A stretch of 40,788 nt of DNA from positions 1-40,788 of the forward strand of contig JANXAS010000028.1 in the NCBI GenBank assembly GCA_025062195.1, in the 5' to 3' direction. The notes below the pieces were generated by a model. It was not told the DNA's origin. It saw only the letters and a list, made by a program, of their open reading frames with translations, and ran no database searches. Shown in pieces: positions 2,752 to 33,345 of the stretch. The translations under genes were made by a program, and so were the position numbers. Origin of the DNA: Armatimonadota bacterium (GTDB lineage: Bacteria > Armatimonadota > Fervidibacteria > Fervidibacterales > Thermosaccharophagaceae). Position 1 is the first letter of the stretch. Each line of letters begins with the position of its first letter.

Positions 2752-2758
2752 AAGTTCA

Positions 2759-2935: not shown

Positions 2936-2985
2936 TTTCTTTCACCTCCTACATTTCAAGTTTAGTAGTGTCAGGTTGGAAGTGA

Positions 2986-3003
2986 ACGAAGTGTCAACTT
3001 CGT
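2986..3003. other. Hairpin in the dop-ubact spacer
   Basis: A perfect 7-bp inverted repeat, ACGAAGT-GTCA-ACTTCGT, lies in the 169-base spacer between the Dop-type gene and the modifier gene. It could affect mRNA processing or partial termination, letting the modifier be made at a different level from the enzymes. No T-run follows, so a full terminator is unlikely. Confidence 0.35.
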
Positions 3004-3104
3004 GCACAAAACCTCGTTGGCTAAGGAGAGCCACACCCCGTTTACGCTCACCCACTTTTGACCGCCAGCGAAGCTTAACTGTCGGTAGCTTGACGACTCT
3101 CGCT

Positions 3105-4637: not shown

Positions 4638-4665
4638 TCCCTTTGAACTCGCCTATAGTTTGAAG

Positions 4666-6408
4666 CTACACAACAGGGCTTATGTTTATATCACGCTCGC
4701 GGCGCCATATTGGGCGGACTTCAACAACATTTTCAGGCTCATAGTCAATGAGCTTGAGCCAGTCTTCAAGGTTCTCGCTCTTCGGGAATATCTCGCTCTC
4801 ACGATACTCAAGGAACGCAGCCTCACATAGGTCATTTAAGGTTACGCCTTCACCTTCATCACCATTCTCTATCGCTCGCCTCAGAGCAAAGTCTTTTGCG
4901 CGCTCAACTAACGACATGATTAGGGCACCGCTGATTAAGTCGCACCAATAAAGTGTTTGTCGCCTGCCGTTGCGCAGGTAGATATCAACGAAGGCAGTCT
5001 CGGAATTCCTTCGGAAGAGGAAATCAATCGTGCGGTCTATCAGAAACTGCCTTGCAGCCTCGTGGCTGCCATGCTCGGCTATCAGACTTGAATGTATTGG
5101 GACAGATTCATTCAAGTATATTGCGAGTATCTCCCTCGATGCATCCCTATTTGGGCGTGCTATCTTAAGCTTGCGGTCTATCCTCCCCGGGCGAAGTATC
5201 GCAGGGTCAATGTAATCTGGACGATTTGATGTGAGCATGACGACCACATTCTCCGTGTCAACCAAGCCATCCATCTCAGCGGCAAACTGCGGGACGACTG
5301 TGTTAGCCATGTCAAGCCACTTGCCTGAACTCCTTGTGCGCAGTATGGCGTCTGCCTCATCAACGAAAATGAAAACAAGGTATCCTTCCCTTGAGCGCTC
5401 ACGGGCGGTGGCAAATATTTCCCTGATCGCCCTTTCGGTCTCTCCGACCCACATGCTCAGTATTTGTGGTCCGTTTATGAGCATGAAATACTCTCGCACA
5501 TCGTTTCCGACTTTTTCCCTGTATGCTTTTGTCACATTATAGGCAGTTGCTTTCCCTATAAGCGTCTTGCCGCACCCAGGAGGTCCATAAAGCAGTATGC
5601 CCTTTACTCGCTGCTTCCCGAACTTGCGATAAAGCTCGGGATATAAAAGTGGGACTTCAATGAGCTCTCTTATGAGCCTGATCGCTTCATCCTGCCCACC
5701 TATCTTGCTCCATGGTGTTTCGGAAACCTTCTCAAGAAAGTAGTCCCTAACTTCCACCCTTTGAAACAGCTCAACTGCAACTCTGAGACTCGGCTCAAGG
5801 CGCACTTCATCCCCAACTTTTATCTCGCATTCGGATAGGTCGCTTGAGCGTCTGACTATTTTTGCTGATAGCCCGTGCCCATCAAGAGATACGCGCAGCC
5901 TGCCATCCGGAAGCAATTCGCTAACCTTCGCAATCGGTCCATCAGTTGCGTAACCCAAATCTCCTATGACAGCGAAGGCATCGTTAATCTTCACCCTCGT
6001 GCCAACCTTTAATGAAGGTGCATCCAAGTTTGGATCAATGTTGGCATAGTATTCGGCATCGCCAACAGCTATATGTGCTATGCCTTCCTCAGGCGACCCA
6101 AGGAATGTTCCGATGCGATTCGCTGGAGACGTGAGCTTTTCATAAACTTCTTGAAACTGCTCAATGACACGCCTCGCCTCTTCAAGCTGTTTTTCGTCCA
6201 CCTCAAGTTGGTGGCGCAGCAAAAGTAGCAGCCCATAACGCTTATCGCTTTCCGGTGTGCGCATGAGTATCTCATCAACTATGGCGGTTGCTTTAAAACG
6301 AGTTTCAAAACCGTGGTTGAAGTGGCTCCCACTTGGTGATGAACTTGAGTCCCTTGTTCTTTCATTACCTTGCCTGTTATTGCGAGAGCCTCTTTTGTCG
6401 GACATCAT
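4666..6408 (-). CDS. arc: Proteasomal AAA ATPase ARC/Mpa
   Basis: This is the hexameric unfoldase that feeds modified proteins to the proteasome. With the ATG chosen behind GAGGTGAAA it has 580 residues; an earlier in-frame start at 6462 adds 18 unlikely residues. Order of parts: a disordered Ser/Asn-rich start, a coiled coil (about 65-95) that would bind the modifier, tandem OB domains (about 100-210), and one AAA module with Walker A GPPGCGKT (275-282), pore-loop MWVGE, Walker B VFIFVDEAD (345-353) and the second region of homology TSNRPDYIDPAILRPGR. The pore loop has Met-Trp where many relatives have Lys-Tyr. The C-terminus is INISPVV and lacks the GQYL-like tail that docks Mpa onto the alpha ring. 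It is the first gene of the UBact-proteasome operon. Confidence 0.93.
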   Translation of the reverse strand: MMSDKRGSRNNRQGNERTRDSSSSPSGSHFNHGFETRFKATAIVDEILMRTPESDKRYGLLLLLRHQLEVDEKQLEEARRVIEQFQEVYEKLTSPANRIGTFLGSPEEGIAHIAVGDAEYYANIDPNLDAPSLKVGTRVKINDAFAVIGDLGYATDGPIAKVSELLPDGRLRVSLDGHGLSAKIVRRSSDLSECEIKVGDEVRLEPSLRVAVELFQRVEVRDYFLEKVSETPWSKIGGQDEAIRLIRELIEVPLLYPELYRKFGKQRVKGILLYGPPGCGKTLIGKATAYNVTKAYREKVGNDVREYFMLINGPQILSMWVGETERAIREIFATARERSREGYLVFIFVDEADAILRTRSSGKWLDMANTVVPQFAAEMDGLVDTENVVVMLTSNRPDYIDPAILRPGRIDRKLKIARPNRDASREILAIYLNESVPIHSSLIAEHGSHEAARQFLIDRTIDFLFRRNSETAFVDIYLRNGRRQTLYWCDLISGALIMSLVERAKDFALRRAIENGDEGEGVTLNDLCEAAFLEYRESEIFPKSENLEDWLKLIDYEPENVVEVRPIWRRERDINISPVV

Positions 6409-6604
6409 TTTCACCTCACACCATAAAATGCAAATAAAATGCCGAGCGCGAAGTTGGCACATTGCTTAACATAGGGAAGTGCATGGCGAAGGTGTGAAAT
6501 CAGATAGCGGCATTCCACCACTGATGACCATTGAGGAAGATAAGGTGCACTGTTAGCTAAGTATCATCATGCATAGTAGCGCACAAGCATCAAACTGCCA
6601 ATCT

Positions 6605-16319: not shown

Positions 16320-16769
16320 ATGAAAGTGGTGGCGATGAACAGGCGCGCAAAGCGTGATTTTGAAATACTTGAAACTTACGAGGCGGGTATTGTCCTAACT
16401 GGTAGTGAGGTGAAATCATTGCGTGTTGGGCGTGTGGACTTGAGCGAGGGTTTTGCGAAGGTTGAAGACGGCGAAGTATGGCTGTATGGAGTTCACATAG
16501 CGCCATGGGAAGGAAGTAAGCACTTTGCTCCGCCACCAGATAGGAAGCGAAAGTTATTGCTTCACAGGCATGAGATAAATCGCCTTATAGGGGCTGTTAG
16601 TCAAAAGGGTCTTACGCTGATACCGCTGCGCGTCTACTTTAATGAGCGCGGTTACGCTAAACTGGAATTAGCCCTTGCAAGAGGTTTGAAGAAACACGAT
16701 AAGCGCAAGGCGCTAATTGAAAGGGAACTCAAAAGGGAGATAGATAGGCATCTTAGGGGGCGCAGGTGA
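16320..16769 (+). CDS. smpB: SsrA-binding protein SmpB
   Basis: SmpB binds tmRNA and brings it to stalled ribosomes for trans-translation. The 149-residue protein has the expected blocks: N-terminal NRRAKRDFEILETYEAGIVL, TGSEVKSLRVGRVDLSEGF, HIAPWEG, RKRKLLLHRHEI, LTLIPLRVYF and the basic tail with ALARGLKKHDKR and ERELKREIDR. Length and order are those of the family. An AGGTG precedes the ATG by eight bases. The ssrA gene, which is often close to smpB, was looked for on both sides and not seen. Confidence 0.97.
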   Translation: MKVVAMNRRAKRDFEILETYEAGIVLTGSEVKSLRVGRVDLSEGFAKVEDGEVWLYGVHIAPWEGSKHFAPPPDRKRKLLLHRHEINRLIGAVSQKGLTLIPLRVYFNERGYAKLELALARGLKKHDKRKALIERELKREIDRHLRGRR

Positions 16770-16788: not shown

Positions 16789-17125
16789 TGCCATGACTGC
16801 AAATGGCGCAATGCAGGTGTTGTGTCGCTTGTGATTGGTAGTCATCTTTGAAGTGATACTTTCATGTTGCATTCCATGAGGTTATAGGCAAGTTGTGAGT
16901 GACAGTATGCATGAGTTTGTCTGAAGAAATTTGGGTGGCTATTAACGGCACTCCAATTTGTTTGTTGCCTTACTATAAACATCTGCTTTTGAACCATGCA
17001 CCTGCCATTGGAATGATTGATGGATCGCTTTTGCCGCTACAATTTGCATCGTGAGGGTGTTGAACCCCAACTCTTATGGCCATGTTGAGTTTGATTTGCA
17101 CCAAGTCCATAACGGAGGTGGTGGA
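16789..17125. other. Spacer between smpB and the transaldolase-like gene
   Basis: About 340 bases with no gene, no clear hairpin repeat and no tmRNA-like ends. It probably holds the promoter for the next gene. A ribosome site GGAGGTGG is at 17114-17121. Confidence 0.4.
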
Positions 17126-19258
17126 ATGATGGCATGGCTAAAAGGCGATTGTGACCCGATTGGTGTTTCTGTAGCCACGGAACGAATGCAAAGGCTGCTT
17201 AAGACGATCCTAAATGTAGTGTGTGGAAATGATAAACGCACAAGGCATCTTATGGATGGTGATGATGCTCGCATTGCCGCTTACAAGCTTGTTTTCTTTA
17301 CAACGCCATCCGAATACCGAAGGCTTGCTTCCGCTATAAGGGACGAGCTCAAAAGTCGTTTTCCTGATGCTGACGCCGAGCTGCGAAGGCGCTATATTCA
17401 GTTCGCTCTCTATTGGGCTGACTCAATCCACTCTCCAGTTGACCTTGACCATAACCTGACAAGGGTTGAGTGGCACGGGGAAAGCATTTTGACCGATGGC
17501 GAAATTGAAGCTGAGAGAGAACAGTTGCTGTCGTTACTCAGTTGGATGCAGGAGCAAGACACAAAAACCGCAGTTGAGGTGCTTGATTACCTTCGCCAAT
17601 ACGCATTCAATGTCAATAGCGTTAAGGGAGAAAATCTGTTTCGCGCTTGGGCATTGAAATGGGAGGCGGAAAATGGTGAGGATCCATTTGGCACGCTTGA
17701 AAACTATATAAAGCACAGGGCTGCCCTGTTTGCCCGCGGCAATTACTATGTTGAGCAATACTTTGCAAGACGAGCTGGTAAGACGATAACGCAGTTCTTT
17801 AATGACTATAGTGAGCAAGCTGACGATTGTCGCAAGCTTGGGAGTTTGGGTGGGACGACAAATCCAGTTATAGCAACGCTTGGCGAGGATGACATACCGA
17901 GAAAGTGGGCTCCGGTCAGGAGGAGAATAGCTGAGCAACAAATTAAAGACGGATTGGATGATGAGTGGGCTGGAACGACATTCACAGAAGAAGTTGTTGT
18001 CAATGCAATGCTTGGGCAGCGACCAGTTTTTCTCCTTGAGGGTCTTGGGCGAGTCGCATTTCAATTGCGCACAGATAAACATGAAGACCTTGAATACCTG
18101 CTCAATGAGGCTCCGGAAATATACATGCGCTTGTGCAGGCGCTTGAAACCAGTTGATGAAATATTGCTTGAGGATGCTGATGAGCTTTACCATCGCCTAA
18201 GCAAAGGGCGTATTGGGCAATCAAACAATCACTTCAAGGTATCGGTAACAGGTTTGGTTGGGCTTAAAGTGTTGCGTGAGTTCAATGCCGGAAACAACAA
18301 ATATGGTGTTCGCCTATACACCAATGCCACAGTGACGCATGACCTATCACAAATTGCAGCGTCGGTTGATGCCGAAATTGAGGGCATGATGAGATATAAG
18401 CAAAAGACAGGTGAGCAACTCGCTGAGGAGATAACAGAGGGCGGTTCTGTAGTCACATCAATGATGGGACGCTATTTGGATGCAATGCGTGAGGAGCGCC
18501 TTGAGATAATCCTGAACGCCATTGACGAGCCTTTGAGGAGTGAGGTGAAGTCAAAACTCAAGAAGGGAGCTACATTGGATGACCCAGTGCTTAAGGATGA
18601 AAGGGTGCTCGCTGAACTTCGCAGCAAGGGCATTGAGTTTAACCCGGACGAGGAAGAGCAAGCCATTAAAGACCTGCCGACGCTTATCACAAAGATGGCT
18701 GTAATTTACGCTGTGAGGAAATATGGTTGGCAGGTTGGCAACCGCATACTCTCGGCATCCAAACGCAACTTTGAGCAGAACACCGACCTTGAAAATGAAG
18801 TGCGCTACTCCACAGACTTCGGCGACATACAGGCGTTGAGCATAGGGCGTGAGTATAAGCCAAACGAAGAGCCGTTAAAGGGATTTGATTGGGAAACAGC
18901 CATGCCTGTAGAGGATGAGAACAACCGTTGGTGGCGCGTTTACAAGGCTATCTTAAGAATGTATCCGGATGGAGAGAAGCATCTTCAGTTTGGCGGGTTC
19001 AAACCGGAGGAGTGGATGGAGAGACGCTACAACAAAGCTACATGGCAGCAGTTCACAGATAAGTGGTGGTTTAATTGCAAGCGTGCAAGGATGTGTGTTG
19101 AGTTGCTGCAAGGGAAATACGATGGTCAGAAAGGCTTTGAGGAGTTCGCAGAGGGCTACTATGGGCACTTGGGAAAGCTCGCGGTTGAGAAGGCACGAGA
19201 ATTCCTTTGCGCTTTCTTCAACCCGGATGAACGGAAAGAGCATGGATGGGATTGGTAG
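17126..19258 (+). CDS. Very large transaldolase-like protein (710 aa)
   Basis: Three blocks in order match the transaldolase barrel: LGSLGGTTNPVIAT (strand 1 motif, Thr-Thr-Asn-Pro), GRVAFQLRTDKHEDLEYLL (like GPVSVEV), and HFKVSVTGLVGLKVLREF with following TNATVTHDLSQIAASVDA, where the Lys (residue 371) sits at the Schiff-base lysine position. Normal transaldolases have 210-330 residues. Here a 235-residue N-terminal part precedes the TTNP motif, about 60 residues are inserted after it, and 250 residues follow. The reaction is unknown; the carboligase substrate may differ from fructose 6-phosphate. The start chosen has a strong GGAGGTGG; a GTG at 17051 would add 25 residues unlike protein. 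No related sugar-phosphate gene is adjacent. Confidence 0.75.
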   Translation: MMAWLKGDCDPIGVSVATERMQRLLKTILNVVCGNDKRTRHLMDGDDARIAAYKLVFFTTPSEYRRLASAIRDELKSRFPDADAELRRRYIQFALYWADSIHSPVDLDHNLTRVEWHGESILTDGEIEAEREQLLSLLSWMQEQDTKTAVEVLDYLRQYAFNVNSVKGENLFRAWALKWEAENGEDPFGTLENYIKHRAALFARGNYYVEQYFARRAGKTITQFFNDYSEQADDCRKLGSLGGTTNPVIATLGEDDIPRKWAPVRRRIAEQQIKDGLDDEWAGTTFTEEVVVNAMLGQRPVFLLEGLGRVAFQLRTDKHEDLEYLLNEAPEIYMRLCRRLKPVDEILLEDADELYHRLSKGRIGQSNNHFKVSVTGLVGLKVLREFNAGNNKYGVRLYTNATVTHDLSQIAASVDAEIEGMMRYKQKTGEQLAEEITEGGSVVTSMMGRYLDAMREERLEIILNAIDEPLRSEVKSKLKKGATLDDPVLKDERVLAELRSKGIEFNPDEEEQAIKDLPTLITKMAVIYAVRKYGWQVGNRILSASKRNFEQNTDLENEVRYSTDFGDIQALSIGREYKPNEEPLKGFDWETAMPVEDENNRWWRVYKAILRMYPDGEKHLQFGGFKPEEWMERRYNKATWQQFTDKWWFNCKRARMCVELLQGKYDGQKGFEEFAEGYYGHLGKLAVEKAREFLCAFFNPDERKEHGWDW

Positions 19259-19707: not shown

Positions 19708-20337
19708 GTGTATAAATTGAAGGTGCGGAAGGCTCAGAATTTGGATTATCTTACCGATGAGGAACTTGTTAAGCTTTCGTGTGCCGGTGAAAGGGAAGCG
19801 TTTGCCATTCTCATCAGGCGATATCAAGATCGCATCTATAGCTTGGTGTATCGCTATGTTGGCAATCCTGAGGACGCCTTGGATCTGACTCAAGAAACTT
19901 TCATTAAGGTGTTCACAAAGCTGGGTGAGTTTAAGGGCAAGTCAAAGTTTTACACATGGCTATATCGCATTGCTGTGAACGTGTGCATTGACTTTCGTAG
20001 AAGGCAGCACATAAGTGCGGTCTATTGGGATGACATAAAGCCGGTTGAGTTGAACCCTTTTGAAGTTGACGAGTCGTCGGAGCATTATGATGTGCCAGAC
20101 GAAAATGGCGACCCGGAGAGAAGAGCAATTGATAGCGAATTAAGGTTGAGGATTCGTGAGGCGGTTGATGCTCTTCCCGAACAGCTTAGGGTTGTTCTTT
20201 TGCTGCGTGAATATGAAGACATGTCCTATGAGGAGATAGCCAAAATCATCGGTTGCCCAGTCGGAACCATAAAAAGCAGGCTCTTTCAAGCAAGGGAAAT
20301 GCTTAAGAGGATGCTTGCTCCATACATGCGCATTTGA
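19708..20337 (+). CDS. ECF RNA polymerase sigma factor (RpoE-like)
   Basis: A group 4 sigma factor of 209 residues. Region 2 is seen as YQDRIYSLVYRYVGNPEDA-LDLTQETFIKVF and FYTWLYRIAVNVCIDFRRR. Region 4 is seen as LPEQLRVVLLLREYEDMSYE and the helix-turn-helix IAKIIGCPVGTIKSRLFQAR. The linker is acidic. The start is a GTG with AGGG a short way upstream; a TTG nine bases later is also possible. The next gene, 19 bases downstream, encodes a membrane zinc anti-sigma factor, followed by an RseB-like sensor, the usual layout of an envelope-stress circuit. Confidence 0.94.
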   Translation: MYKLKVRKAQNLDYLTDEELVKLSCAGEREAFAILIRRYQDRIYSLVYRYVGNPEDALDLTQETFIKVFTKLGEFKGKSKFYTWLYRIAVNVCIDFRRRQHISAVYWDDIKPVELNPFEVDESSEHYDVPDENGDPERRAIDSELRLRIREAVDALPEQLRVVLLLREYEDMSYEEIAKIIGCPVGTIKSRLFQAREMLKRMLAPYMRI

Positions 20338-22012: not shown

Positions 22013-23758
22013 TTGCGCAGAGAAGGCAAAGTTAATTCCGGTGGCATGCAGAAACTTTATGGCGAATTCATAGGTGAATTGCTGATCAGGCTCGGGAAGC
22101 TATCAAGGGAGAAGCTTGAAGAGGCTTTAAAATTGCAGGCTCAAAGCTCGGGGGATAAAAGGCTGGGTGAGCTTTTGGTCGAGCTCGGCTACTGCACAGA
22201 GGATGATGTTGTTGAGGCACTCTCAATTCAAACTGGATTGCCGATTGTTAACCTGCGCGAGGAGAGAGTTGACCCGGATGCCATAATGCTACTTCCGCCC
22301 GAAGTAGCATACAGGCATATGGTTCTTCCTATTGAGCGCAGAGATTCTGTGCTTAAAGTGGCGATTGCAGACCCACTTGATATTGCGGCTGAAGATGCCC
22401 TTCGCTTCATTACCGGATTGAATGTGGAACCATATCTTGCCCGCCCAAGTGAAATAAAGTCCCTCATTGAGCAGCACTATATGCGAAGGGTGATGCAGGA
22501 AAGTCAGGATGAGCAAATTGAAGTGATTGAGGAAGTCGAGGAGGAAATAGGTGATCCAACTCGCCTCGCAAAAGAGGCGCTTGTTATAAGGCTCGTTGAT
22601 ATGCTCGTCAGAAACGCAGTTAGGGAGAGAGCAACTGACATTCACATTGAGCCATTTGAGCGCACCTTGAGAATACGCTACAGGATTGATGGTGTGCTTC
22701 ACGAAGTCCCTGCTCCAGCAAAGCGCTTTCATGCGGCTATCGTATCTCGTATAAAGATCATGTCAAACCTTGATATAACGGAGAGGCGCAGACCTCAGGA
22801 TGGGCGTATAAGAATACGGGTGCTCGCCAGGGAGATTGACCTTCGTGTCTCAATCATACCGACGATGTTTGGCGAATCAGTTGTCCTAAGGATACTTGAT
22901 AGGTCATCATCTCTCCTGACGCTTGAGCAGTTGGGAATGATGGGGGATGACTTAAGCCGCTTTGAGCGAATCATACAGGCACCTTATGGTATACTGCTCG
23001 CAACGGGTCCAACAGGCAGCGGTAAAACGACAACACTCTATGCAGCTATACAGAGGTTGTATACGCCGGAACTGAAGTTCATCACGATTGAAGACCCTGT
23101 AGAATATCAGATTGATGGTGTAAACCAAATACAGATAAACCCGCAAATTGGGCTCACATTCGCAAATGCCCTAAGGTCAATTCTGAGGCATGACCCTGAC
23201 ATAATCATGGTTGGCGAGATCAGGGATAGGGAAACCGCCGAGATAGCCATTCATGCCGCTTTAACTGGTCACCTTGTGTTTTCAACACTGCACACAAATG
23301 ACGCTCCAGGAGCAATCACAAGGCTTCTTGAAATGGGCATGGAGCCGTTTCTCGTTTCGTCAGCTCTGCAAGGCATACTGGCTCAAAGGCTCGTTAGAAA
23401 AATCTGTGAACATTGCAAGGTTGAGTATGAACCGGGAGAGGTAGTGAGAAGAATGCTTATCTCCGAGGGGTTTGAGGAAGCGGTGGATTGTAAGTTTTAC
23501 CGCGGCGCCGGTTGTGATGAGTGCCGCTATACAGGCTACTTTGGTCGCACAGGCATATTTGAGTTGCTCGCAATGGATGAGGCGATCAGGGAATTGGTTC
23601 TGCGAAAAGCCCCCGCTGGAGAAATAAGGCAGGTGGCAATTGAGCACGGCATGCATACTCTACTTCAAGATGGATTGAGGAAGGTCTTGCTCGGCATAAC
23701 GACGATTGAAGAGGTTGAGAGAGTAACCCAACTGCCAAATGGCAACCCGCCAAGATAA
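22013..23758 (+). CDS. gspE: Type II secretion ATPase GspE
   Basis: The cytoplasmic assembly ATPase of type II secretion or type IV pilus systems, 581 residues. Order: an MshEN-type N-terminal domain (about 15-155), a short acidic linker, the N2 domain with ATDIHIEPFE, Walker A GPTGSGKTT (332-340), Asp box ITIEDPVEYQ, Walker B DIIMVGEIRDRETA (396-409), His box LVFSTLHTND, and a four-Cys zinc site made of CEHC and later GCDEC. The start is TTG behind GGGGGCG; the next in-frame ATG, 33 bases on, has a poor ribosome site. It is the first gene of the secretion run and the likely engine for the pseudopilus encoded downstream. Confidence 0.95.
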   Translation: MRREGKVNSGGMQKLYGEFIGELLIRLGKLSREKLEEALKLQAQSSGDKRLGELLVELGYCTEDDVVEALSIQTGLPIVNLREERVDPDAIMLLPPEVAYRHMVLPIERRDSVLKVAIADPLDIAAEDALRFITGLNVEPYLARPSEIKSLIEQHYMRRVMQESQDEQIEVIEEVEEEIGDPTRLAKEALVIRLVDMLVRNAVRERATDIHIEPFERTLRIRYRIDGVLHEVPAPAKRFHAAIVSRIKIMSNLDITERRRPQDGRIRIRVLAREIDLRVSIIPTMFGESVVLRILDRSSSLLTLEQLGMMGDDLSRFERIIQAPYGILLATGPTGSGKTTTLYAAIQRLYTPELKFITIEDPVEYQIDGVNQIQINPQIGLTFANALRSILRHDPDIIMVGEIRDRETAEIAIHAALTGHLVFSTLHTNDAPGAITRLLEMGMEPFLVSSALQGILAQRLVRKICEHCKVEYEPGEVVRRMLISEGFEEAVDCKFYRGAGCDECRYTGYFGRTGIFELLAMDEAIRELVLRKAPAGEIRQVAIEHGMHTLLQDGLRKVLLGITTIEEVERVTQLPNGNPPR

Positions 23759-23820
23759 GGCTCACAATCCAAACCCTAACTTAACTTCGCAGCGCTATAG
23801 GTAAGGCGTGGTGATATGCC

Positions 23821-25035
23821 TTGCCCACATTCCGTTATGTGGCTCTCAATCAGAGAGGCATTCAAGTGCGCGGTGAGTTGGTGGCTAACACTCGTGAGGA
23901 AGCCTTCAATCTCATAAGGCAGATGGGGCACTACCCGCTTGAAGTTCAAATTGTGTTGGATGGCAAGCCAAAGAGCGGGTTCACATTTAAGGGTAGAATA
24001 AGCCACCAAGACTTAACCCTCCTTTCAAGGCAGCTTGCCAACTTGCTTAAGGGCGGTTTGCCGCTGATGCGTTGCCTTGAGGCGCTAATTGAGCATACGG
24101 AAAACAAAACCCTCTCAGATGTGTTGATGCAGGTTGCCAATGAAGTTCGCTCAGGGAGTGCTTTCCACGAGGCGTTGAGCAAGTATGGCAGGTTTTTCCC
24201 GCCGCTTTACATTGCACTCATAAAGGCTGGTGAGACTGCCGGGCGTTTATCACTCATACTTGAATGGCTCGCTGACTATATGGAGAGACAGCAGGCAAGG
24301 CTTTCGCAAATACGAGCCTCACTTGCGTATCCGACATTGTTGATCACGCTCGGGAGCATAGCAGTCTTTCTGCTCATCACATTCATGGTTCCACGCTTTC
24401 AGGCGATATATGAAGAGCTTGGGCAAGCGTTGCCCACCCCCACAATAGTTCTGATGAATATATCGCAGCTTGCATCCAGATGGTGGTGGGCATTCATACT
24501 CGCCATCATCGGTCTTTTGATGCTCTATCGTCAAATAGCATCAACGGAAGCCGGCAGAATGTTGATTGACAGGGTGAAATTGCGCATACCAATTTATTCT
24601 CGCCTTGCTATGAAGATGGCGGTTGTCAGGTTCGCAAGGTCACTTGCAACTTTGCTTCGTGGAGGTGTGCCAATACTTGAGGCGCTTGACATAGCTAAGG
24701 ATGTGCTCGGAAACGAAGTGCTCGCTGCGGAAGTGAGTCAGGTCAAAGGGAGGGTGAGAGAAGGCGAGAGGATAGCGGAGCACCTTCGCGCTGCGAACTT
24801 GTTTCCGCCGTTGCTCATTCACATGGTGGCTGTTGGTGAGGAGATAGGGGACTTGCCGGGAACATTGACAACTGTTGCTGAGACGCTTGATGTTGAAGTT
24901 GATGCATCGCTCAAAACACTTGTCGGGCTGCTTGAGCCGGCAATAATCTTGGTGATGGGCGCTGTAGTGGCTTTCGTTATATTCGCGATGGTGCTTCCCA
25001 TATTCCAGATGAATCTGATGGCTGGGATAAGGTGA
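23821..25035 (+). CDS. gspF: Type II secretion inner-membrane protein GspF
   Basis: The polytopic platform protein contacted by GspE. It has 404 residues, begins with the family motif PTFRYVALNQRG, and contains two repeated T2SSF domains, seen as LTLLSRQLANLLKGGLPLMR...LSKYGRFFPPLYIALIKAGE and VVRFARSLATLLRGGVPILE...LFPPLLIHMVAVGEEIGDLP. Three membrane helices are visible, the last ending in ILPIFQMNL-like VLPIFQMNLMAGIR. The start is TTG after GGTGAT, since an in-frame stop lies just upstream. It follows gspE by 62 bases. Confidence 0.95.
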   Translation: MPTFRYVALNQRGIQVRGELVANTREEAFNLIRQMGHYPLEVQIVLDGKPKSGFTFKGRISHQDLTLLSRQLANLLKGGLPLMRCLEALIEHTENKTLSDVLMQVANEVRSGSAFHEALSKYGRFFPPLYIALIKAGETAGRLSLILEWLADYMERQQARLSQIRASLAYPTLLITLGSIAVFLLITFMVPRFQAIYEELGQALPTPTIVLMNISQLASRWWWAFILAIIGLLMLYRQIASTEAGRMLIDRVKLRIPIYSRLAMKMAVVRFARSLATLLRGGVPILEALDIAKDVLGNEVLAAEVSQVKGRVREGERIAEHLRAANLFPPLLIHMVAVGEEIGDLPGTLTTVAETLDVEVDASLKTLVGLLEPAIILVMGAVVAFVIFAMVLPIFQMNLMAGIR

Positions 25036-25074
25036 AAGCAGTTGTAACGAACGCTTCTTAGGAGGCGAGAGGAG

Positions 25075-25536
25075 ATGGTTATCGCCCGTTGCAAAAGAAT
25101 TGTAAGAAGGCGTTTTGGCTTCACTTTGATTGAGTTGATGGTTGTGATGGTCATACTCGTTCTTTTGGCTGGTGGTGTAAGCGTTATGGTTGTTGGGCGG
25201 ATTGAAGAGGCGAAGAGGGCGAGAGCGAAGATGGATATTCAAGCGCTTGAAGCTGCCTTAGACATGTATTATGCGCACAATGGGCGCTATCCGGCGACTG
25301 AGCAGGGATTAAGAGCTTTGATCGCCAAGCCGACAACGGAACCGATACCGCGAAATTGGCAAGGTCCTTACCTTAAACATGGCAGGCTGCCGAAAGACCC
25401 TTGGGGAAACGACTATCAATACATCTTTCCCGGCAAACATAACCCGGACAGCTTTGACCTTTACTCCTTCGGACGAGATGGAAAAGAAGGCGGAGTTGGT
25501 CTTGATGCAGATATTGGCAACTGGGAGGAGCAATGA
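25075..25536 (+). CDS. gspG: Major pseudopilin GspG
   Basis: The main subunit of the pseudopilus. A basic 15-residue leader ending in Gly precedes FTLIELMVVMVILVLLAG, the prepilin peptidase site and methylated-Phe helix with Glu5. The body has the GspG features ALDMYYAHNGRYPATEQGL and a C-terminal DPWGNDYQYIFPGKH followed by DLYSFGRDGKEGG, the calcium-binding type end. At 153 residues it has normal size. An AGGAGG site is close upstream. The prepilin peptidase gene is not in the window. Confidence 0.96.
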   Translation: MVIARCKRIVRRRFGFTLIELMVVMVILVLLAGGVSVMVVGRIEEAKRARAKMDIQALEAALDMYYAHNGRYPATEQGLRALIAKPTTEPIPRNWQGPYLKHGRLPKDPWGNDYQYIFPGKHNPDSFDLYSFGRDGKEGGVGLDADIGNWEEQ

Positions 25537-25567
25537 GAATCAGCTAAAAGCTGCTCCTTTATCTCGG

Positions 25568-26200
25568 ATGGCAATTTGGAGCCGCAAAAATGCTTTCCGG
25601 GGGGCATTCACGCTAATTGAAATCGTTGTCGTAATGGCTATTATAGCCCTCGTGATATCGCTTGCGCTGCCTAACTTCGCTGCCTACTATGAAGCTGAGA
25701 GGATGCGTTCGCTGTCAAGGCGGATCATCGCCTGCATGAAGTATGCTCACCAATATGCTGTAAGCCGAAGATGCATTGCTGTAGTATCGTTGGATGAAAA
25801 CGAGAGAGTTATACAAGTCCTTGTGCCAAAGGAACATGTATCAGTGGATGCCATTCAGTCCGGCGAGATAGACATTCAATCCGAGTCGGTATCGGAATTG
25901 ATCGTCGGAACTAACAGGTATCAACTCCCAAGCGAGTTGGTGATGTTGCTCAATGACAGGTGGGTTGAATTTTCGCCGGAGAGATTTGTGCCAGCTAAGG
26001 AAAGGCAATTTGGCGTTGTGAAAATACCCGATGGAGTTGAAGTTGAAATTGTTGACACAGAGAGCGGTTCAAAGCTTGATAGCATTATGTTTCGTCAGGA
26101 CGGGACCGCAACTGGCGCAATGGTGAACATGAAGGGATGGCGAGGCTTTCAAATCACAATCCAAGTTGATCCAGTCACTGCAAGAGTGAGCGCCGAATGA
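25568..26200 (+). CDS. gspH: Minor pseudopilin GspH/FimT-like
   Basis: The protein has a 13-residue basic leader ending in Ala, then FTLIEIVVVMAIIALVISL, the prepilin helix with Glu5. The body of about 180 residues (RMRSLSRRIIACMKYAHQYA, then strand-rich parts ending in GWRGFQITIQVDPVTARVS) fits the GspH/FimT group. The start is uncertain. The ATG used gives a normal leader; an in-frame ATG at 25505 inside gspG would give a longer one, and open frame continues farther back as an overlap with gspG. Ala instead of Gly before the cleavage site is unusual but tolerated. A 530-base spacer separates it from gspI. Confidence 0.82.
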   Translation: MAIWSRKNAFRGAFTLIEIVVVMAIIALVISLALPNFAAYYEAERMRSLSRRIIACMKYAHQYAVSRRCIAVVSLDENERVIQVLVPKEHVSVDAIQSGEIDIQSESVSELIVGTNRYQLPSELVMLLNDRWVEFSPERFVPAKERQFGVVKIPDGVEVEIVDTESGSKLDSIMFRQDGTATGAMVNMKGWRGFQITIQVDPVTARVSAE

Positions 26201-26732
26201 GAGACATGCTCTCGCTTTGGTGGTATGCCTCCCTTAAGTGGCGGTAAGGGTGCATAAAGCGAGCCCTAAATGTTGGGGTGTTGTTAGCCGCTGACACTTA
26301 TGGAATACTTGCAATCTTCTCGCCACTAAGAAACTTAGCATGGGCGTGGTTCAAAGGTGTTCGTAGTGAGGCACGAAACGAAGCTTGGTGCCACCAAAAC
26401 GCTGCTTTGTTAAAGCCATCTTCAGAAATTAAAGGTGGCATCCAATGCGAGCCTCCGAGGTATCGTGGCTTGCACGAGATTGTTGTTCATCTTCTGTCGC
26501 CAGCGGGGAACGATATTGCAAATATCCGTTTCATGTGACGCGTGCATCATGTCATAAAAATGCTTTCGGTGAAATTCCGCCCCCATTCGCATCGTGATGG
26601 GGATGAATTCCCACGCACGCCGGATGCTACTCTAATTTTTGAGGGTGTGAAGATAGTATGAACCAGTAGCCTTTGAGCATGGTGTGAAAACGGTTTAATA
26701 TCGACGCTGTCCAACCAAAGGTGATGCAAACA
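26201..26732. repeat. Spacer with a repeat inside the secretion run
   Basis: This 532-base gap splits gspH from gspI. It contains a copy of the TTCGTAGT-GGCACGAA-CGAAGC repeat at 26360-26395 and no credible gene. Other parts of the gap resemble no family seen elsewhere in the window. Confidence 0.5.
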
Positions 26733-27269
26733 ATGAAGTTCGGCGCATTCAATCATCGGCTGTTTTTCACGAACACCGTATGCGGGATGATGAATTCAAG
26801 CACTGCCGCCTTTACGCTCCTTGAACTGCTGATTGCGCTCGCCATCACGGTCATAGCTGTGGTTGGAATAGTTCGTGGCGTTAGCAACGGGCTTATGGCA
26901 GTTCAATCGCTCTCAAAACGAAATGAGGCGATAAATCTTGCGAGGATGAAGATGGAAGAGTTGCTCACTTCAATGGATGAGCAAACGGATGAGCAAGAGG
27001 GCGATTTCGGTGAAGCGTTCCCACAGTTCAGGTGGGAGGCTCAAATTTCCGATGCACAAGTTGAAGGGCTGAAGGTTGTAACGGTAAGGGTGATTTGGCG
27101 TGAGGGGGTTAATGAACGGGCAGTCTCGCTCAGCACACTCATTGGGCAGGAGAAGTTAACATCGTTACCGCCGTCGGAGTCTGATGGCGAATCGCAAAGC
27201 AGGGGCGAGCCTTCAGAGGGCGAGAGTTTGAGCGCCACTACCGGGGGAGGTCGGGATGAAGCGCAATAG
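26733..27269 (+). CDS. gspI: Minor pseudopilin GspI
   Basis: A prepilin-like protein with AAFTLLELLIALAITVIAVV as cleavage site and helix, Ala at -1 and Glu5 present. It continues with LSKRNEAINLARMKMEELL, typical of GspI, and ends in a Ser/Glu/Gly-rich tail. The start is unclear: ATG here follows AAAGGTGAT; GTG at 26721 and ATG at 26790 are alternatives, the last leaving a seven-residue leader. It overlaps gspJ by 14 bases, so translation is probably coupled. With GspJ and GspK it should form the pseudopilus tip. Confidence 0.85.
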   Translation: MKFGAFNHRLFFTNTVCGMMNSSTAAFTLLELLIALAITVIAVVGIVRGVSNGLMAVQSLSKRNEAINLARMKMEELLTSMDEQTDEQEGDFGEAFPQFRWEAQISDAQVEGLKVVTVRVIWREGVNERAVSLSTLIGQEKLTSLPPSESDGESQSRGEPSEGESLSATTGGGRDEAQ

Positions 27270-28218
27270 CTGCACTCCAACACATGCTTGCACTGCATCA
27301 AAACTCTCTGGGATGACATTGGTTGAGTTGCTTGTCACACTGACCATTGCGACGCTGCTTTTTGGTGGACTTGTTTTTGTCTTTAGGGCAGTGGGGCTTT
27401 CAGAACAAGTTTGTGAGGAGCAGTTGGTGTTGATCAGAGCGGGGCGAGTTGCGCTTGAACGAATTTCAAGGGACTTGCGCAGCTGCTATCCGATGCGCGT
27501 GCAAATTCCCGAAGAGCTTGCTGGCATCAGTGCCATGAGTCTTACCCGTGAAAGCTCAACGGCACAAATTAGCTCTTCGGGCATCTTGCGCTCACCAAGC
27601 GGCTCAACCGGTATAACGACACCAAACACAATCCTCACATTCCTCACAGAAGACAATTACAATGAGCGCTTGCAACTTGACCAGGATTCACTCCGCTTAA
27701 CTGCCGCTGCCAATGACCCTCGTTCACACGAACAGCCATCGTATGACATCGTTGAAGTCGCTTACTATATTGACATTGACCCGGGGACAAGTGAGGAGGG
27801 TTTGGTTAGGGCAGTCGGATTGCTGCCCGGTTTAGTGAGTGAAAGAGCTACTGGTGAGGAGCAGAAGAGAACTGTGCTTTCGCCGAACATCTGGGCGCTT
27901 AACTTTCGCTACTTCAACGATACCGACTCTCAATGGTTGGATGAGTGGCATGACTTTGAGAAGTTGCCAGCTGCTGTTGAAGTGACAATTGGTGTATTCC
28001 CAACGAGGGCGATAGAGCAGTTGCGCTCCCAAAGGGTTGACCAAAAGTTGGTATCGCCATTAATCTTGACGACCGTTTTGCCCATAACCATCCGACATGT
28101 TCCTACTGCTCTGAGCCTTGAGCAATTACAGCAGGGACAGCGAATGCAGGGAGCGCAAGAGGGACAACAGCTTGGTGGGGAACAAATCGCTGAACCAGAC
28201 GAAGAAAACACGCGATGA
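27256..28218 (+). CDS. gspJ: Minor pseudopilin GspJ
   Basis: The leader MKRNSCTPTHACTASKLSG is followed by MTLVELLVTLTIATLLFGG, giving Gly before the cleavage site and Glu5. The region AGRVALERISRDLRSCYP and a strand-rich body with VEVAYYIDID and NIWALNFRYF...WLDEWHDFEKLPAAVEVTI match GspJ. The C-terminal 45 residues are rich in Gln, Gly and Glu and are probably disordered. GGGGGAGG lies before the ATG within the end of gspI. At 320 residues it is longer than usual (about 200). Confidence 0.87.
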   Translation: MKRNSCTPTHACTASKLSGMTLVELLVTLTIATLLFGGLVFVFRAVGLSEQVCEEQLVLIRAGRVALERISRDLRSCYPMRVQIPEELAGISAMSLTRESSTAQISSSGILRSPSGSTGITTPNTILTFLTEDNYNERLQLDQDSLRLTAAANDPRSHEQPSYDIVEVAYYIDIDPGTSEEGLVRAVGLLPGLVSERATGEEQKRTVLSPNIWALNFRYFNDTDSQWLDEWHDFEKLPAAVEVTIGVFPTRAIEQLRSQRVDQKLVSPLILTTVLPITIRHVPTALSLEQLQQGQRMQGAQEGQQLGGEQIAEPDEENTR

Positions 28219-28359
28219 AATTTGTAACGGCATCTTGCGGTTAAATTATGAGCGCTGTTCTTTGCTCAAGAGTTTGGGCAGTTAGCCACCGTAGGCGATG
28301 GATGAAGATGAATCAAAAGTTCTCGGTAAAGCGAGAAAGGAATAGGTGAGCGTCAACCC

Positions 28360-29991
28360 ATGAGCTTGAATGGCACTTTTGTTAGCGCCCATCTTGCGGA
28401 TCGTGATAGAGCGATTGCACTCATATTCGTTCTTTGGCTTATAGCGGTGCTTGCTTTGCTTTCGGCGTCCTTGCTTTTAACCGTGCGCATGGAGGTTCGC
28501 AGCAGCGCGTTGCAGGAAGACGAAATTAAGGCTTACTATCTTGCAAGGGCTGGTATTGCGCATGCGCTGCGTCTGCTGTCAACCGACGAGATGAGCTTTG
28601 ACAGTTACAGCGAGCAATGGGCGCTCATTGATTCGGAGAAGGAAGGCGCATTGAATGATGTGGGAAGGTATATCGTGCGAGTTGAAGATGAAGCTGGGAA
28701 GTTGAATTTAAACATAGCAACGAGGGACGAGCTTGTTCGCTTCTTCGGTGACGAAGCGCTCGCCGACGCAATTATTGATTGGCGGGATGAGGATGATATC
28801 CCTGCAGCCTACGGTGCTGAGGCGGACTGGTATCTATCCTCTGGGCTGCCATACAAGCCGCGCAACGCCCCGTTTGAGACATTGCACGAATTGCTTCTTG
28901 TGCGCGGTATGACTATAGATTGGTTTTATAACTCCACCCAATATTCGGCATATAGAGTTTACGATGTTGAGGGGCAATCCGCATTGCCGCTGCATGACTG
29001 CTTGACAACATATTCAGCCGTGCCAAATGTAATGCCGGATGGCTCACCGCTTGTAAACTTGAACGAGGCATCGGCTGAGGAGATGAAAAGGGTTTTGGGT
29101 GATATCCTTACGGACGAGGAAATAGAAGCGATTTTGCGATACCGTGAAGGAGCGCCATCGCAGCAGGGCACACAGCGCCCCACAGGTCAAAGACCATCCT
29201 CGGAGCGACCGGCAAATCAGCCATCTGCGCCCACACAAGGTGGTGAACGCCCACAAAGTTTGGCACCGCCTGCAGGTGTGCCGTCTGGGGCGGGTTTCGG
29301 ACAAGACACAACACCGCAGATGGGTATTCAGATTCCACCAAACCGAGCAGCGATTCAACGCCCGCCCAGCTCCGTTCCGGGCGACGGACAGAGTGTTGAA
29401 GGTGCCCCGCCGCAAGATATAAATCAAGACACATCACAGCAGGCGGCGCAGGCAGGTGAAATTCGGCGGGCAGTCTCATCAAATAGGTTTGGTTCACTGG
29501 CTGACCTCTTTTCCGTGCCGGGATTGCCCACCGATAAGGCACGGCAAATAATTGACCGAGTAACTATATGGGGTGGCAGAGCAAGATATAACGCCATCAA
29601 TATCAACACAGCGCCGCTTGAAGTTCTGTTGAGTTTGCCGTGGATGACTCAAGAGATAGCGAACGACATTGTCTCGTTCAGGCAGCACCGTGGCGCTTTT
29701 GAGTCGCTCTCGCAGTTGCTTGACTTATCATCAATTGATGAGCGCTCATTCAGGCAGATAATTGACAGGGTGAGTGTGCGCACACAGGTGTTCCGAATTA
29801 TATCGGTGGGTTGGATGGACAGCGGTGCACGCTATGTAATAGAGTGTGTTATTGAGCGCATATTAACGCAGCCGTTAACAGGCGAATCTGTGCAGGGCGT
29901 GGAATCTCGCACGGCAAGCCCTTCGGGACAGCCATCCAATGCGTCGCAAAGCAATGTGACATTTGTAGTGCGCTACTGGCGGGAAAGGTGA
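28360..29991 (+). CDS. gspK: Minor pseudopilin GspK with long Pro/Gln-rich insert
   Basis: The N-terminus DRAIALIFVLWLIAVLALLSASLL is the GspK-type prepilin helix, which lacks Glu5; here Arg-Ala stands where Arg-Gly is usual. The body has helix-hairpin-helix units: GKLNLNIATRDELVRFFGDE (about 113-132), SPLVNLNEASAEEMKRVLGD and ININTAPLEVLLSLPWMTQE with SFRQHRGAFESLSQL. Residues 265-370 are a low-complexity stretch rich in Pro, Gln, Gly and Ser that most relatives lack; it splits the protein in two folded parts. GspK caps the pseudopilus with GspI and GspJ. The stop overlaps or abuts the next gene, so expression is coupled. Confidence 0.88.
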   Translation: MSLNGTFVSAHLADRDRAIALIFVLWLIAVLALLSASLLLTVRMEVRSSALQEDEIKAYYLARAGIAHALRLLSTDEMSFDSYSEQWALIDSEKEGALNDVGRYIVRVEDEAGKLNLNIATRDELVRFFGDEALADAIIDWRDEDDIPAAYGAEADWYLSSGLPYKPRNAPFETLHELLLVRGMTIDWFYNSTQYSAYRVYDVEGQSALPLHDCLTTYSAVPNVMPDGSPLVNLNEASAEEMKRVLGDILTDEEIEAILRYREGAPSQQGTQRPTGQRPSSERPANQPSAPTQGGERPQSLAPPAGVPSGAGFGQDTTPQMGIQIPPNRAAIQRPPSSVPGDGQSVEGAPPQDINQDTSQQAAQAGEIRRAVSSNRFGSLADLFSVPGLPTDKARQIIDRVTIWGGRARYNAININTAPLEVLLSLPWMTQEIANDIVSFRQHRGAFESLSQLLDLSSIDERSFRQIIDRVSVRTQVFRIISVGWMDSGARYVIECVIERILTQPLTGESVQGVESRTASPSGQPSNASQSNVTFVVRYWRER

Positions 29992-29996
29992 GGGGA

Positions 29997-31598
29997 ATGT
30001 TTAGAAGGAGCTTTTTTGTCGGATTTGATATTGGCGAGAGGGAGCTCAAAGTTGCAATATTGCGCCGACACGGTTTGGATGTTGAGATAGTTGGTCTGAA
30101 CAGAACGCAGTTGCAGTCCGAGGGCGAGGAGAGATGTGAGGAAGTCGGCAGGAAGCTGTCTGAGTTGCTCTCGTTGCATCGCGTGAAGAGCGCTGCAATT
30201 TGTGCCTGTGTGCCGATGACGGCATGCACGGTGCGCAGGCTCACTCTACCGCCGGTGAGAAAGTTGGAGACGATTGAACAGCTCGTTCAGATGGAGGCGC
30301 AAAATCAAATACCGCTCCCGCTTAGCCGCGTCGCTTTCAGCTATATTGTGCAAGCTCTCAGACATGATAGCATACATGTGTTAGCCGGGATGTGCAAACA
30401 TGAAGCTATTGAGTTCCTGTTAAGGGTGGCTCATATAGCGGGGTTTGAGTTGCGCTTGATCGTTCCATCGGTGCTTGCCTGTTGGCATGCGGCGAATGAC
30501 GAGGCGCTTAATGAGCGGTTGACTTGCGTGGTTGATATTGGGGCGACGAGCACCGACATAGTGGTTGGGCATAGTGATGCTGTCTTTGTGGCGAGGAATG
30601 TCCTTGTGGGCACGGGACAGCTTTTGAAAGCCATCTCTGAGGATGCGGGTTGCTCCTTGGAGGAAGCTGAGTGGAGGATGCGCAGAGGTGGGATTGAGTT
30701 GGAACTCTTTGACGAGCGCAAAGCCGACAACGCCGTTAAGAACTCGTCCGTCCTCAATTGGCTTTTGAAGCTTGAGGAGGAGATTTTGAAGACGGCCCAA
30801 ATAGTTGAGCGCTCATTCAACGAGGTTATCAAAAAAATCCTTTTGTGCGGTGGCGGTGCGCTTATACCAAATCTCGCCGAGTGGCTTGGGAGACGATTAG
30901 GGGTAAGTGTGCGATTGCTTGATATGCCGAGGCTATCCGGAGGTTATGCGGGGTTGATGGACAAGAGCGAGTTTATGCCGATGACCGCTGCTTTCGGGGC
31001 AGCGCGCTCTTTGGCTTTGCGCAAGCCCACGCTCAATTTCGTCCCGCAGAGTAGATTTAGGTTGGCGGTTACCCAGAGGATATGGAAGCAAGCTGCGATA
31101 CTGCTCTTTGCCGCAAATGTTGGGTTGATAGTGTTGGCACTCTCATACGGCTCACAGCTGAAGAAGTTGCAATACGAAGCTGAGGCAATGGCGAGGGCAA
31201 TTGAAGAGAGACGCTCACAGCTGCGCTCAGAAGTTACTGTGGGGAATTTTTCGCCGACAGTGATGGCTATGCGGGATTTGCTCTCAGAAGCATCCGATAT
31301 CAGGGGAGATTGGCTTGAAATGCTTTATGGATTGAGCATGGCGTTGCCAGAAGGAGTATGGCTGAATGAGCTTGAATGCACGCGCGGGCGTGAAGTCACA
31401 ATGCGCGGCACAGCTTTAAGCTATCGCCTGTTTGATGAGGCTGTCCGTTCCATTAGGCAATTGGGAGCCGGCGATAATAAACAAATCCCGATGTTCTCAG
31501 ATGTGATTGTTGCGGGAGTTGTGAGCCGCGAAGTTAATGGCAGAACTGTTGTTGACTTCAGATTAATATGCACCTTAGCTCATCAAGGCACACGGTAA
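29997..31598 (+). CDS. PilM-PilN fusion (GspL-like inner-membrane protein)
   Basis: The first ~345 residues are an actin-like ATPase of the PilM type: phosphate-1 loop VGFDIGERELKVAIL, phosphate-2 loop VVDIGATSTDIVV and adenosine motif LLCGGGALIPNLAEWL. A membrane helix follows (AAILLFAANVGLIVLALSYG), then a coiled coil and a periplasmic PilN-like domain ending in FRLICTLAH. Fused, this equals GspL of type II secretion, whose cytoplasmic half is PilM-like, but the intact nucleotide motifs are closer to PilM. The ATG here follows GGTGAGGGG; a GTG at 29988 overlapping the gspK stop is the alternative. PilO and PilP-like genes follow directly. Confidence 0.87.
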   Translation: MFRRSFFVGFDIGERELKVAILRRHGLDVEIVGLNRTQLQSEGEERCEEVGRKLSELLSLHRVKSAAICACVPMTACTVRRLTLPPVRKLETIEQLVQMEAQNQIPLPLSRVAFSYIVQALRHDSIHVLAGMCKHEAIEFLLRVAHIAGFELRLIVPSVLACWHAANDEALNERLTCVVDIGATSTDIVVGHSDAVFVARNVLVGTGQLLKAISEDAGCSLEEAEWRMRRGGIELELFDERKADNAVKNSSVLNWLLKLEEEILKTAQIVERSFNEVIKKILLCGGGALIPNLAEWLGRRLGVSVRLLDMPRLSGGYAGLMDKSEFMPMTAAFGAARSLALRKPTLNFVPQSRFRLAVTQRIWKQAAILLFAANVGLIVLALSYGSQLKKLQYEAEAMARAIEERRSQLRSEVTVGNFSPTVMAMRDLLSEASDIRGDWLEMLYGLSMALPEGVWLNELECTRGREVTMRGTALSYRLFDEAVRSIRQLGAGDNKQIPMFSDVIVAGVVSREVNGRTVVDFRLICTLAHQGTR

Positions 31599-31638
31599 GT
31601 TTAAGCTGCTCCTAAAAGAGGATGTGAGGTGTTTATTG

Positions 31639-32259
31639 ATGGCACAGCCCTTGAGTGAGGGGCAAGTAACTGTTAGGGGACTGAATTTGCGCTTCTTGAT
31701 CATTCATGTGGTGCTCGCATTGCTCTCCGTTTTCATTTTGGCTTTCTGGGTGGCACCGATGCGAAGCGCGACTCGTCAAATGTATAGGGCGCTTGAGGAC
31801 CAAAAACGACAGTTGAAGGAACTTAACAGGCAAGCTCAATTGGCAAAGCAACTTAAGAGGGATTACGAGAGGTTGAGAAGATTAGTTGGCTTGCCGTTGA
31901 AGAAGTTTGAGCGTGGCAAGCTGATATCACAGCTTGTCTCAGAGGTGAGTGAGGCAGCATCTCAGTGTGGGCTTAGCGTGAGCGCCTTTCAGCCGGGTGA
32001 GCCTATTCCTGAGCGAGATGGGCGCTGGGTTATGGTGCCAATTGAAGTGACGATGGATGGGACGATGAAAGCGTTGGCACATTTCCTTGCAGCCTTGCGC
32101 AGGATGACGCCACTCACAATTGTTGAGAGAGTGGTTCTGAGCAGCTCACAAGATGGCGCTGATAGAATGCGCATTCAAATGCGCATCTCAAGGTATGTGC
32201 TTATTGAGAGTGATTCATGGGCGACTTCGCAACGCAGCGGCGTAAGGATGCCGCGGTGA
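31639..32259 (+). CDS. pilO: PilO/GspM-like inner-membrane protein
   Basis: A 206-residue single-helix protein: a short cytoplasmic start, helix FLIIHVVLALLSVFILAFWV, a coiled coil (MYRALEDQKRQLKELNRQAQ...), then a ferredoxin-like periplasmic domain with VSAFQPGEPIPERDGRWVMV and PIEVTMDGTMKALAHFLAAL, which is the PilO pattern. In the machine it pairs with the PilN part of the preceding fusion. The ATG follows GAGGTG; the GTG at 31624 is less likely. Its last four bases overlap the next start. Confidence 0.85.
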   Translation: MAQPLSEGQVTVRGLNLRFLIIHVVLALLSVFILAFWVAPMRSATRQMYRALEDQKRQLKELNRQAQLAKQLKRDYERLRRLVGLPLKKFERGKLISQLVSEVSEAASQCGLSVSAFQPGEPIPERDGRWVMVPIEVTMDGTMKALAHFLAALRRMTPLTIVERVVLSSSQDGADRMRIQMRISRYVLIESDSWATSQRSGVRMPR

Positions 32260-33218: not shown

Positions 33219-33345
33219 AAGTCATACGAGAGCTAACTTAAGAGCTTAAGAGAGTCGTGATTGCTGTATGAATTACGAGTGCATCGTCGGTGATGAGTTC
33301 TTTTGATGTCGCATGAATTTGAGCTATTTATGAGGTGAGGTAAAC

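Follow-up and report, generated by a model that had tools for sequence, protein, structure and literature searches.

A large transaldolase-like protein family of Armatimonadota, likely a divergent branch with class I aldolase chemistry

Results and discussion

The 40,788-nucleotide contig of an Armatimonadota bacterium analysed here (referred to as the window) carries a gene for a 710-residue transaldolase-like protein at 17126..19258 (+ strand, stop included). This protein belongs to a conserved branch of the transaldolase superfamily, which is real but unlabelled in the libraries searched. There are good grounds to regard it as a Schiff-base (class I) enzyme, either aldolase or transaldolase, of a branch that is new and divergent within the transaldolase/FSA superfamily; the protein is probably a sugar aldolase not yet characterised. 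We favour a role as an aldolase of sugar catabolism over that of a housekeeping pentose-phosphate transaldolase, because in relatives the gene adjoins one for a UxaE-type epimerase or a LacI-type regulator.

The gene and its surroundings

Translation of the window reads 17126-19255 open as 710 residues with no internal stop, and the full-length relatives of the product are about 40-45% identical to it. Directly 5' of the ATGATG start, the sequence GGAGGTGG (17114..17121, +) is a probable ribosome-binding site. If translation began at an alternative GTG at 17051, the protein would be 25 residues longer, and the variation of the N-terminus among relatives bears on this alternative. The upstream neighbour is smpB (16320..16769, +; PF01668), and the downstream neighbour encodes a sigma-70-type (ECF-like) sigma factor (19708..20337, +; PF04542/PF08281). 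Since the intergenic gaps are roughly 350 bases on the smpB side and 450 bases on the sigma factor side, the gene is probably transcribed alone. Predicted promoters were no commoner in the window than in shuffles, the terminator scan found four terminators against a mean of 2.7, and an Rfam search of the window gave no match.

Elsewhere in the window, a proteasome cluster (1963-6462, -) comprises a proteasome subunit (PF00227), a Pup ligase (PF03136, 525 bits) and a proteasomal AAA ATPase. Between the genes for the subunit and the Pup ligase lies a 58-aa ORF (2759-2935) that ends in RQRSGE and resembles a Pup/UBact-type tag. A run of genes at 22013-36591 (+) appears by eye to be type II secretion/type IV pilus-like, with an ATPase, an inner-membrane protein, several pseudopilins and a large secretin-like protein, all likewise assigned by eye.

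Distribution of the family and its escape from domain libraries

In a profile search, the full-length family was recognized in 14 of 291 Armatimonadota genomes, and these member genomes fall into four families. A search of 101 genomes (that of the window and its relatives) yielded full-length relatives in seven, the window's own genome included, and short matches to proteins of about 475 aa in nine others. When genome contigs were searched with the single window protein, no relative was found; the family alignment recovered eight loci. The eight named records carrying the gene are six Armatimonadota metagenome-assembled genomes (MAGs), one record titled uncultured bacterium and one titled Bacillota. 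Viral origin or spread was considered and rejected, as two alignment-based scans of viral contigs found no relative. The window protein is itself an odd member of the family: compared with the other six sequences in the first family alignment, it is 18 residues shorter after the GEDD motif and has an additional C-terminal tail of about 50 residues (660-710; 19103..19255, +).

The window protein gave only chance-level matches against Pfam, and no match against NCBIfam or the PDB sequences. None of nine family members matched PF00923 (TAL_FSA) at E ≤ 1, and the family does not reach the curated cut-off of that model (27 bits). Comparison of the family alignment with the PDB sequences returned only three unrelated rows (E = 2.4-2.5). 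In a search of the literature restricted to open-access papers, nothing was found on large transaldolases of such kind.

Relationship to the transaldolases

The link between the family and the transaldolases runs through Armatimonadota TAL_FSA proteins of about 475 aa that are themselves uncharacterised (L008-L016, in 9 of 101 genomes); these are about 23-25% identical to the family and reach the Pfam TAL_FSA model. By hhalign, the family alignment matches that of the 475-aa proteins with a probability of 98.8% (E = 6 × 10-17) over 448 columns, the N-terminal region included, and the 475-aa family in turn matches the canonical transaldolases at 99.4%. Two of these proteins, scanned singly, matched PF00923 at 73.4 and 69.1 bits, and the profile of their family, searched against the PDB, gave transaldolases first (E = 1.6 × 10-14). 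A direct hhalign comparison of the window family with the canonical transaldolases fell short of significance (probability 4.2%), so the tie to transaldolase is transitive, although it is a strong one.

The lack of any direct family-model match would be expected if the motifs were chance matches in an unrelated protein. This idea is scarcely credible in view of the comparisons of profiles and folds and of motifs that, as described below, are invariant and keep their order; an unrelated alignment used as a negative control scored only 0.3% by hhalign, and chance matching is already refuted at the profile level.

The 475-aa proteins share with the window family the helical region at the N-terminus, the motifs of the barrel, the Gln/Met pair and Thr at the position of residue 444, but their inserts are shorter and the His ahead of the Lys is missing. 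All nine genomes that encode them have another PF00923 match too. A gene for a 410-aa protein (L062:8259-9488 and L063:7170-8399) precedes that of the 475-aa relative in two genomes belonging to a single genus; the L062 copy matches the class II aldolase model PF01116 (46.8 bits) as a divergent, aldolase-like sequence.

Domain layout and predicted structure

As the first-pass annotation of the window had pointed out, the protein is unusually long: reading frames with canonical PF00923 matches in the phylum have lengths of either some 220 aa or 360-450 aa. Of the long N- and C-terminal parts described in that annotation, the former was recovered and the latter was not. Residues 1-204 (17126..17737, +) constitute an N-terminal region that the AlphaFold2 model predicts to be all-helical, whereas transaldolases align structurally with the stretch from about residue 205 to residue 659 (17738..19102, +), which leaves no long separate C-terminal part. 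The latter region is assigned as a transaldolase-type barrel with long insertions on the basis of VIA-align, the isolated domain and the sizes of the insertions. The phosphate-site motifs at 444-449 and 545-547 lie inside it, and the extra length of the chain stems also from inserts and the tail. Relative to a 223-aa transaldolase, the spacings between successive motifs differ by -3, +35, +32, +7, +22 and +64 residues, so that about 204 residues in front, the inserts and about 50 residues behind account for most of the 710.

The AlphaFold2 model, computed from nine sequences, has a mean pLDDT of 71. Its N-terminal helices are mostly of high pLDDT, and values below 50 occur at 221-259, 543-553 and 555-592, among other poor stretches; the three named cover the strands with Asp and TTNP and the final strands of the barrel. 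In a Foldseek search against the PDB, the three best matches were transaldolases (E = 0.02-0.07, probability 0.99-1.00), and all other rows among the matches listed had probabilities of 0.23 or less; no match reached an E-value of 0.001. With VIA-align, transaldolases occupied rows 1-27 of 50 (Z = 9.2-11.9), nearly all of them spanning the model from residue 203-220 or so to about residue 655-669, and the best, 3r5e, aligned 326 of its 360 residues to model residues 205-659 (Z = 11.9, rmsd 4.0). When the barrel domain was folded alone, the mean pLDDT fell to 62, and VIA-align again placed transaldolase/FSA chains first (rows 1-28 of 50; best Z = 11.9, rmsd 4.6, 280 residues aligned); the best Foldseek match was 3r5e (E = 0.072, probability 0.41). 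The Z scores of up to 11.9 and the transitive profile link together indicate a (beta/alpha)8 barrel of the transaldolase type. A comparison of predicted structure with transaldolases, suggested in the first-pass annotation, was favourable across the barrel, but the model itself is poor (pLDDT < 50) at the Asp/TTNP strands and the last strands. Because of these low values, the prediction that Lys371 and TTNP lie in one common site is drawn from the alignment, the model being of low confidence there.

The N-terminal region has no Pfam domain. By hhalign it is common to the 475-aa relatives from about residue 51 on, and in the family alignment its first 20-25 residues or so are variable. VIA-align also gave myosin-tail and exportin rows for the N-terminal helices, presumably reflecting a common helical arrangement. 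It had been proposed that the protein might be a subunit-fused form; this proposal has to be abandoned, as the 475-aa relatives have the N-terminal region too and Pfam reveals no second catalytic domain. Since the region aligns with that of these relatives, it is an inherited part of the lineage. The TAL-PGI fusion (963-aa frame, G055, L033) is also a large protein with a transaldolase barrel, but its extra part is C-terminal and, by eye, glucose-6-phosphate isomerase-like, whereas that of the window protein is N-terminal and helical.

The predicted active site

The sequence motifs on which the first-pass annotation was based, TTNP (residues 244-247), VAFQL (310-314), FK (370-371) and others, do occur in the order given there: all seven motif patterns are found once each, in order, in 15 of 15 full-length sequences (some of which are the same gene twice). 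In an alignment of 17 sequences (six of the family, six intermediate sequences of about 475 aa and five canonical rows), Thr244, Asn246, Lys371, Asn400, Thr402, Arg449 and Phe643 are invariant in 17/17. By alignment, all of these columns except that of Phe643 correspond to known site positions of transaldolases. The lysine picked out in the first reading as the Schiff-base residue coincides with the invariant Lys column, so that Lys371 (18236..18238, +) is the predicted Schiff-base lysine. Around it would stand TTNP with Asn246 (17855..17866, +) and, on the strand after the Lys strand, Asn400 and Thr402 (18323..18331, +). Asp227 (17804..17806, +) may correspond to the catalytic Asp that strand 1 carries in the superfamily, Asp6 of FSA; the Asp227 column has Asp in 14/17 and is gapped in the canonical rows L035, L028 and L031, for which reason the equivalence is deduced from spacing. 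The barrel, the Schiff-base Lys with the residues around it, the changed pair Gln313 and Met446, and the sugar-catabolic neighbours in relatives all support the first-pass suggestion that this is a distinct aldolase acting on a substrate of its own.

Gln313 (18062..18064, +) stands in the column that has Glu in all five canonical rows, so the acid-base Glu of transaldolase proper (EC 2.2.1.2) is missing. This Glu is E96 in TalB, in which the numbering of the site also includes K132 and R181, and E60 in T. acidophilum. Met446, in the motif TSMMGR (444-449; 18455..18472, +) together with Thr444 and Arg449, occupies the position of Phe in canonical transaldolases and Tyr in FSA. The Gln313/Met446 pair is found in 6/6 family and 6/6 intermediate rows, as opposed to Glu/Phe in 5/5 canonical rows, and it is present in all seven of the 475-aa proteins aligned. 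Finally, His369 (18230..18232, +), two residues before Lys371, is present in 6/6 family rows and 0/11 other rows.

The site residues reported for FSA are Asp6, Asn28, Gln59, Lys85, Thr109, Ala129 and Tyr131; Gln59, Thr109 and Tyr131 hold a water molecule, and Tyr131 is the main proton shuttle (PMC13259622). The window protein resembles the E. coli FSA in the pairs Gln59/Gln313, Thr109/Thr402, Lys85/Lys371 and Asn28/Asn246, but differs from it in having Met446 at the place of Tyr131 and 710 residues instead of 220. As the 17-sequence alignment has no FSA row, the match of Gln313 with Gln59 runs via the canonical Glu column and the Gln described for FSA (PMC13259622). The family thus combines the Gln and Thr of FSA with neither the FSA Tyr nor the transaldolase Glu. 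In TalB, the single exchange F178Y is reported to turn the enzyme into an aldolase (PMC3962226), and this makes Met446 a point of interest.

SKR (545-547; 18758..18766, +) is a candidate for the second anion-binding Ser/Arg. Arg449, Ser545 and Arg547 are found in 6/6 family rows, and in the 17-sequence alignment Arg449 is conserved in 17/17 and Arg547 in 15/17; by the alignment, Arg449 is presumably the equivalent of R181 of TalB. The three residues fit the phosphate site described for TalB, which consists of two Arg and one Ser, R181 among them (PMC3962226).

The best structural matches were transaldolases of 350-360 aa, namely those of Neisseria gonorrhoeae (3clm) and Corynebacterium glutamicum (3r5e), with Z = 11.7-11.9. 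Two Armatimonadota relatives of this type (L028 and L031) have the Lys, the Thr/Asn of TTNP/TSNP, the Asn, Thr and Arg as in the family. The window family differs from the 350-360-aa enzymes by Gln/Met for Glu/Phe and by the added N-terminal domain and inserts, and has no significant direct profile match to them. Glu93 of the Neisseria enzyme is described as lying near a Lys-Cys switch and is not the catalytic Glu (PMC8964421). The sulfofructose transaldolases belong to the same superfamily as the window protein: BmSF-TAL has Glu61 in short chains of 218-226 aa, in contrast to Gln313 in a chain of 710 aa, and that of Faecalicatena (F2) is reported to be a natural Gln variant with a D/K/Q triad (PMC11659671). 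By eye, no genes for sulfoquinovose use stood out next to those of the window family.

Replacement of the acid-base Glu by Gln and of Phe/Tyr by Met in all six members and all six intermediates, together with the long inserts, might be taken as signs of a catalytically dead descendant of transaldolase with a regulatory or structural role. We regard this as very unlikely, since the Lys, the Thr and Asn of TTNP, the Asn, Thr and Ser and both Arg are kept in 15/15 full-length sequences. Moreover, FSA itself has Gln at this position (PMC13259622), and a natural Gln transaldolase candidate is reported to be expressed during growth on sulfoquinovose (PMC11659671).

Class I aldolase or transaldolase chemistry is the likely prediction. 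By such a mechanism, Lys371 would attack the C2 ketone of a ketose and the C3-C4 bond would then break, with the dihydroxyacetone unit staying bound to the enzyme until it either leaves (aldolase) or is transferred to an aldehyde (transaldolase). The two arginines may hold the negatively charged far end of the substrate, a phosphate or possibly a carboxylate. As Gln313 replaces Glu and Met446 replaces Phe/Tyr, the handling of water and protons would have to differ from that in both known groups.

Neighbour genes in relatives

The first-pass annotation had proposed genome context in relatives as a check. Fifteen distinct member loci, the window included, were compared, with duplicates of one contig entered a single time. 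At four of them (L018, L019, L051 and L052) the gene immediately upstream is of the LacI type, and at five others (L020, L021, L025, L082 and L083) the next gene of appreciable size belongs to the UxaE family. In L020, L021 and L025 the UxaE-family neighbour has the same direction and is a divergent form of about 580 aa (PF16257, 101-130 bits), whereas that of L082 and L083 is convergent and of 453 aa (476 bits for the L082 copy). At a sixth locus, L050, a UxaE gene is close by, after an epimerase-like gene and on the other strand. Neither LacI nor UxaE adjoins the gene at five loci: the window, L022, L023, L024 and the truncated L084. Such neighbours suggest that in relatives the protein serves as a class I aldolase in the breakdown of ketoses or keto-uronates.

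The divergent UxaE copies (L020:3061-4812, L021:6083-7813 and L025:10628-12376) are about 580 aa long, those of L021 and L025 being 57% and 55% identical to that of L020, and in L021 and L025 a GH38-type gene is next along. A profile of this form (E ≤ 1 × 10-60) detected it in nine of 291 genomes, namely in 4/14 member genomes versus 5/277 others (kinship ignored). After the LacI-aldolase pair of L018 and L019 comes a gene for a protein of about 700 aa with a signal-peptide-like start (L018:9965-12055 and L019:9929-12076); the L018 copy has no Pfam match.

UxaE is reported to connect two hexuronate isomerase pathways in Thermotoga (PMC6353982). One may ask whether the family in relatives is a keto-hexuronate aldolase, cleaving the fructuronate or tagaturonate handled by UxaE to dihydroxyacetone and tartronate semialdehyde, with the window copy acting on a similar acid. 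Two UxaE types, the true 453-aa one (L082) and the divergent one (L020, L021 and L025), adjoin this one gene family; PF16257 was found in 9/14 member genomes and the mannonate dehydratase UxuA in 2/14 (both just above the cut-off; member genomes only), and the two conserved arginines could bind a carboxylate. However, the genome-wide tie of UxaE to the family is not tight (9/14 versus 31/94 others, p = 0.036), the window's own genome has no UxaE match, and the absence of UxuA can have other causes, as in the route by UxaE, mannonate kinase and phosphoketolase reported for Lactobacillus suebicus (PMC6978723). The uronate substrate is thus a doubtful assignment, and the presence or absence of UxaE or UxuA, taken alone, is not decisive for the role of the family. 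A fuller scheme, in which a third acid-base arrangement (Gln/Met and the family-specific His) goes together with direct cleavage of the keto-hexuronates from the UxaE step to the two products above, bypassing mannonate/altronate and KDG, is decidedly speculative and improbable as a whole.

Transaldolases in the member genomes

The window's genome, which is 96.95% complete, encodes a split transketolase and yet has no PF00923 match even at E ≤ 10. Recognised TAL_FSA genes are also scarcer in the member genomes than elsewhere (PF00923 in 6/14 versus 231/277 other genomes; Fisher p = 0.001, a value that ignores kinship and is inflated by it, because the members cluster in four families). The phosphate-site Arg/Ser/Arg are retained as well, so the protein could be the cell's pentose-phosphate transaldolase, standing in for the canonical enzyme. 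We consider this unlikely. Six of the 14 member genomes carry a recognised TAL_FSA gene as well. Four genomes of the same order (G001-G004) have neither the family nor PF00923, and therefore absence of transaldolase is common here; two of the four are only about 60% complete. In addition, cells are reported to be able to dispense with transaldolase by the sedoheptulose-bisphosphate route (PMC7029132), and the LacI and UxaE neighbours and the Gln/Met site point elsewhere.

Conclusions

An entire conserved family escapes the domain libraries used in annotation, and therefore genomes like that of the window appear to be without any transaldolase- or FSA-type protein. The Gln/Met pair of this family is a natural test of transaldolase transfer versus aldolase release, which have so far been studied by engineered Glu/Gln and Phe/Tyr exchanges, and the UxaE neighbours in relatives give a defined and testable proposal of a new sugar-acid route.
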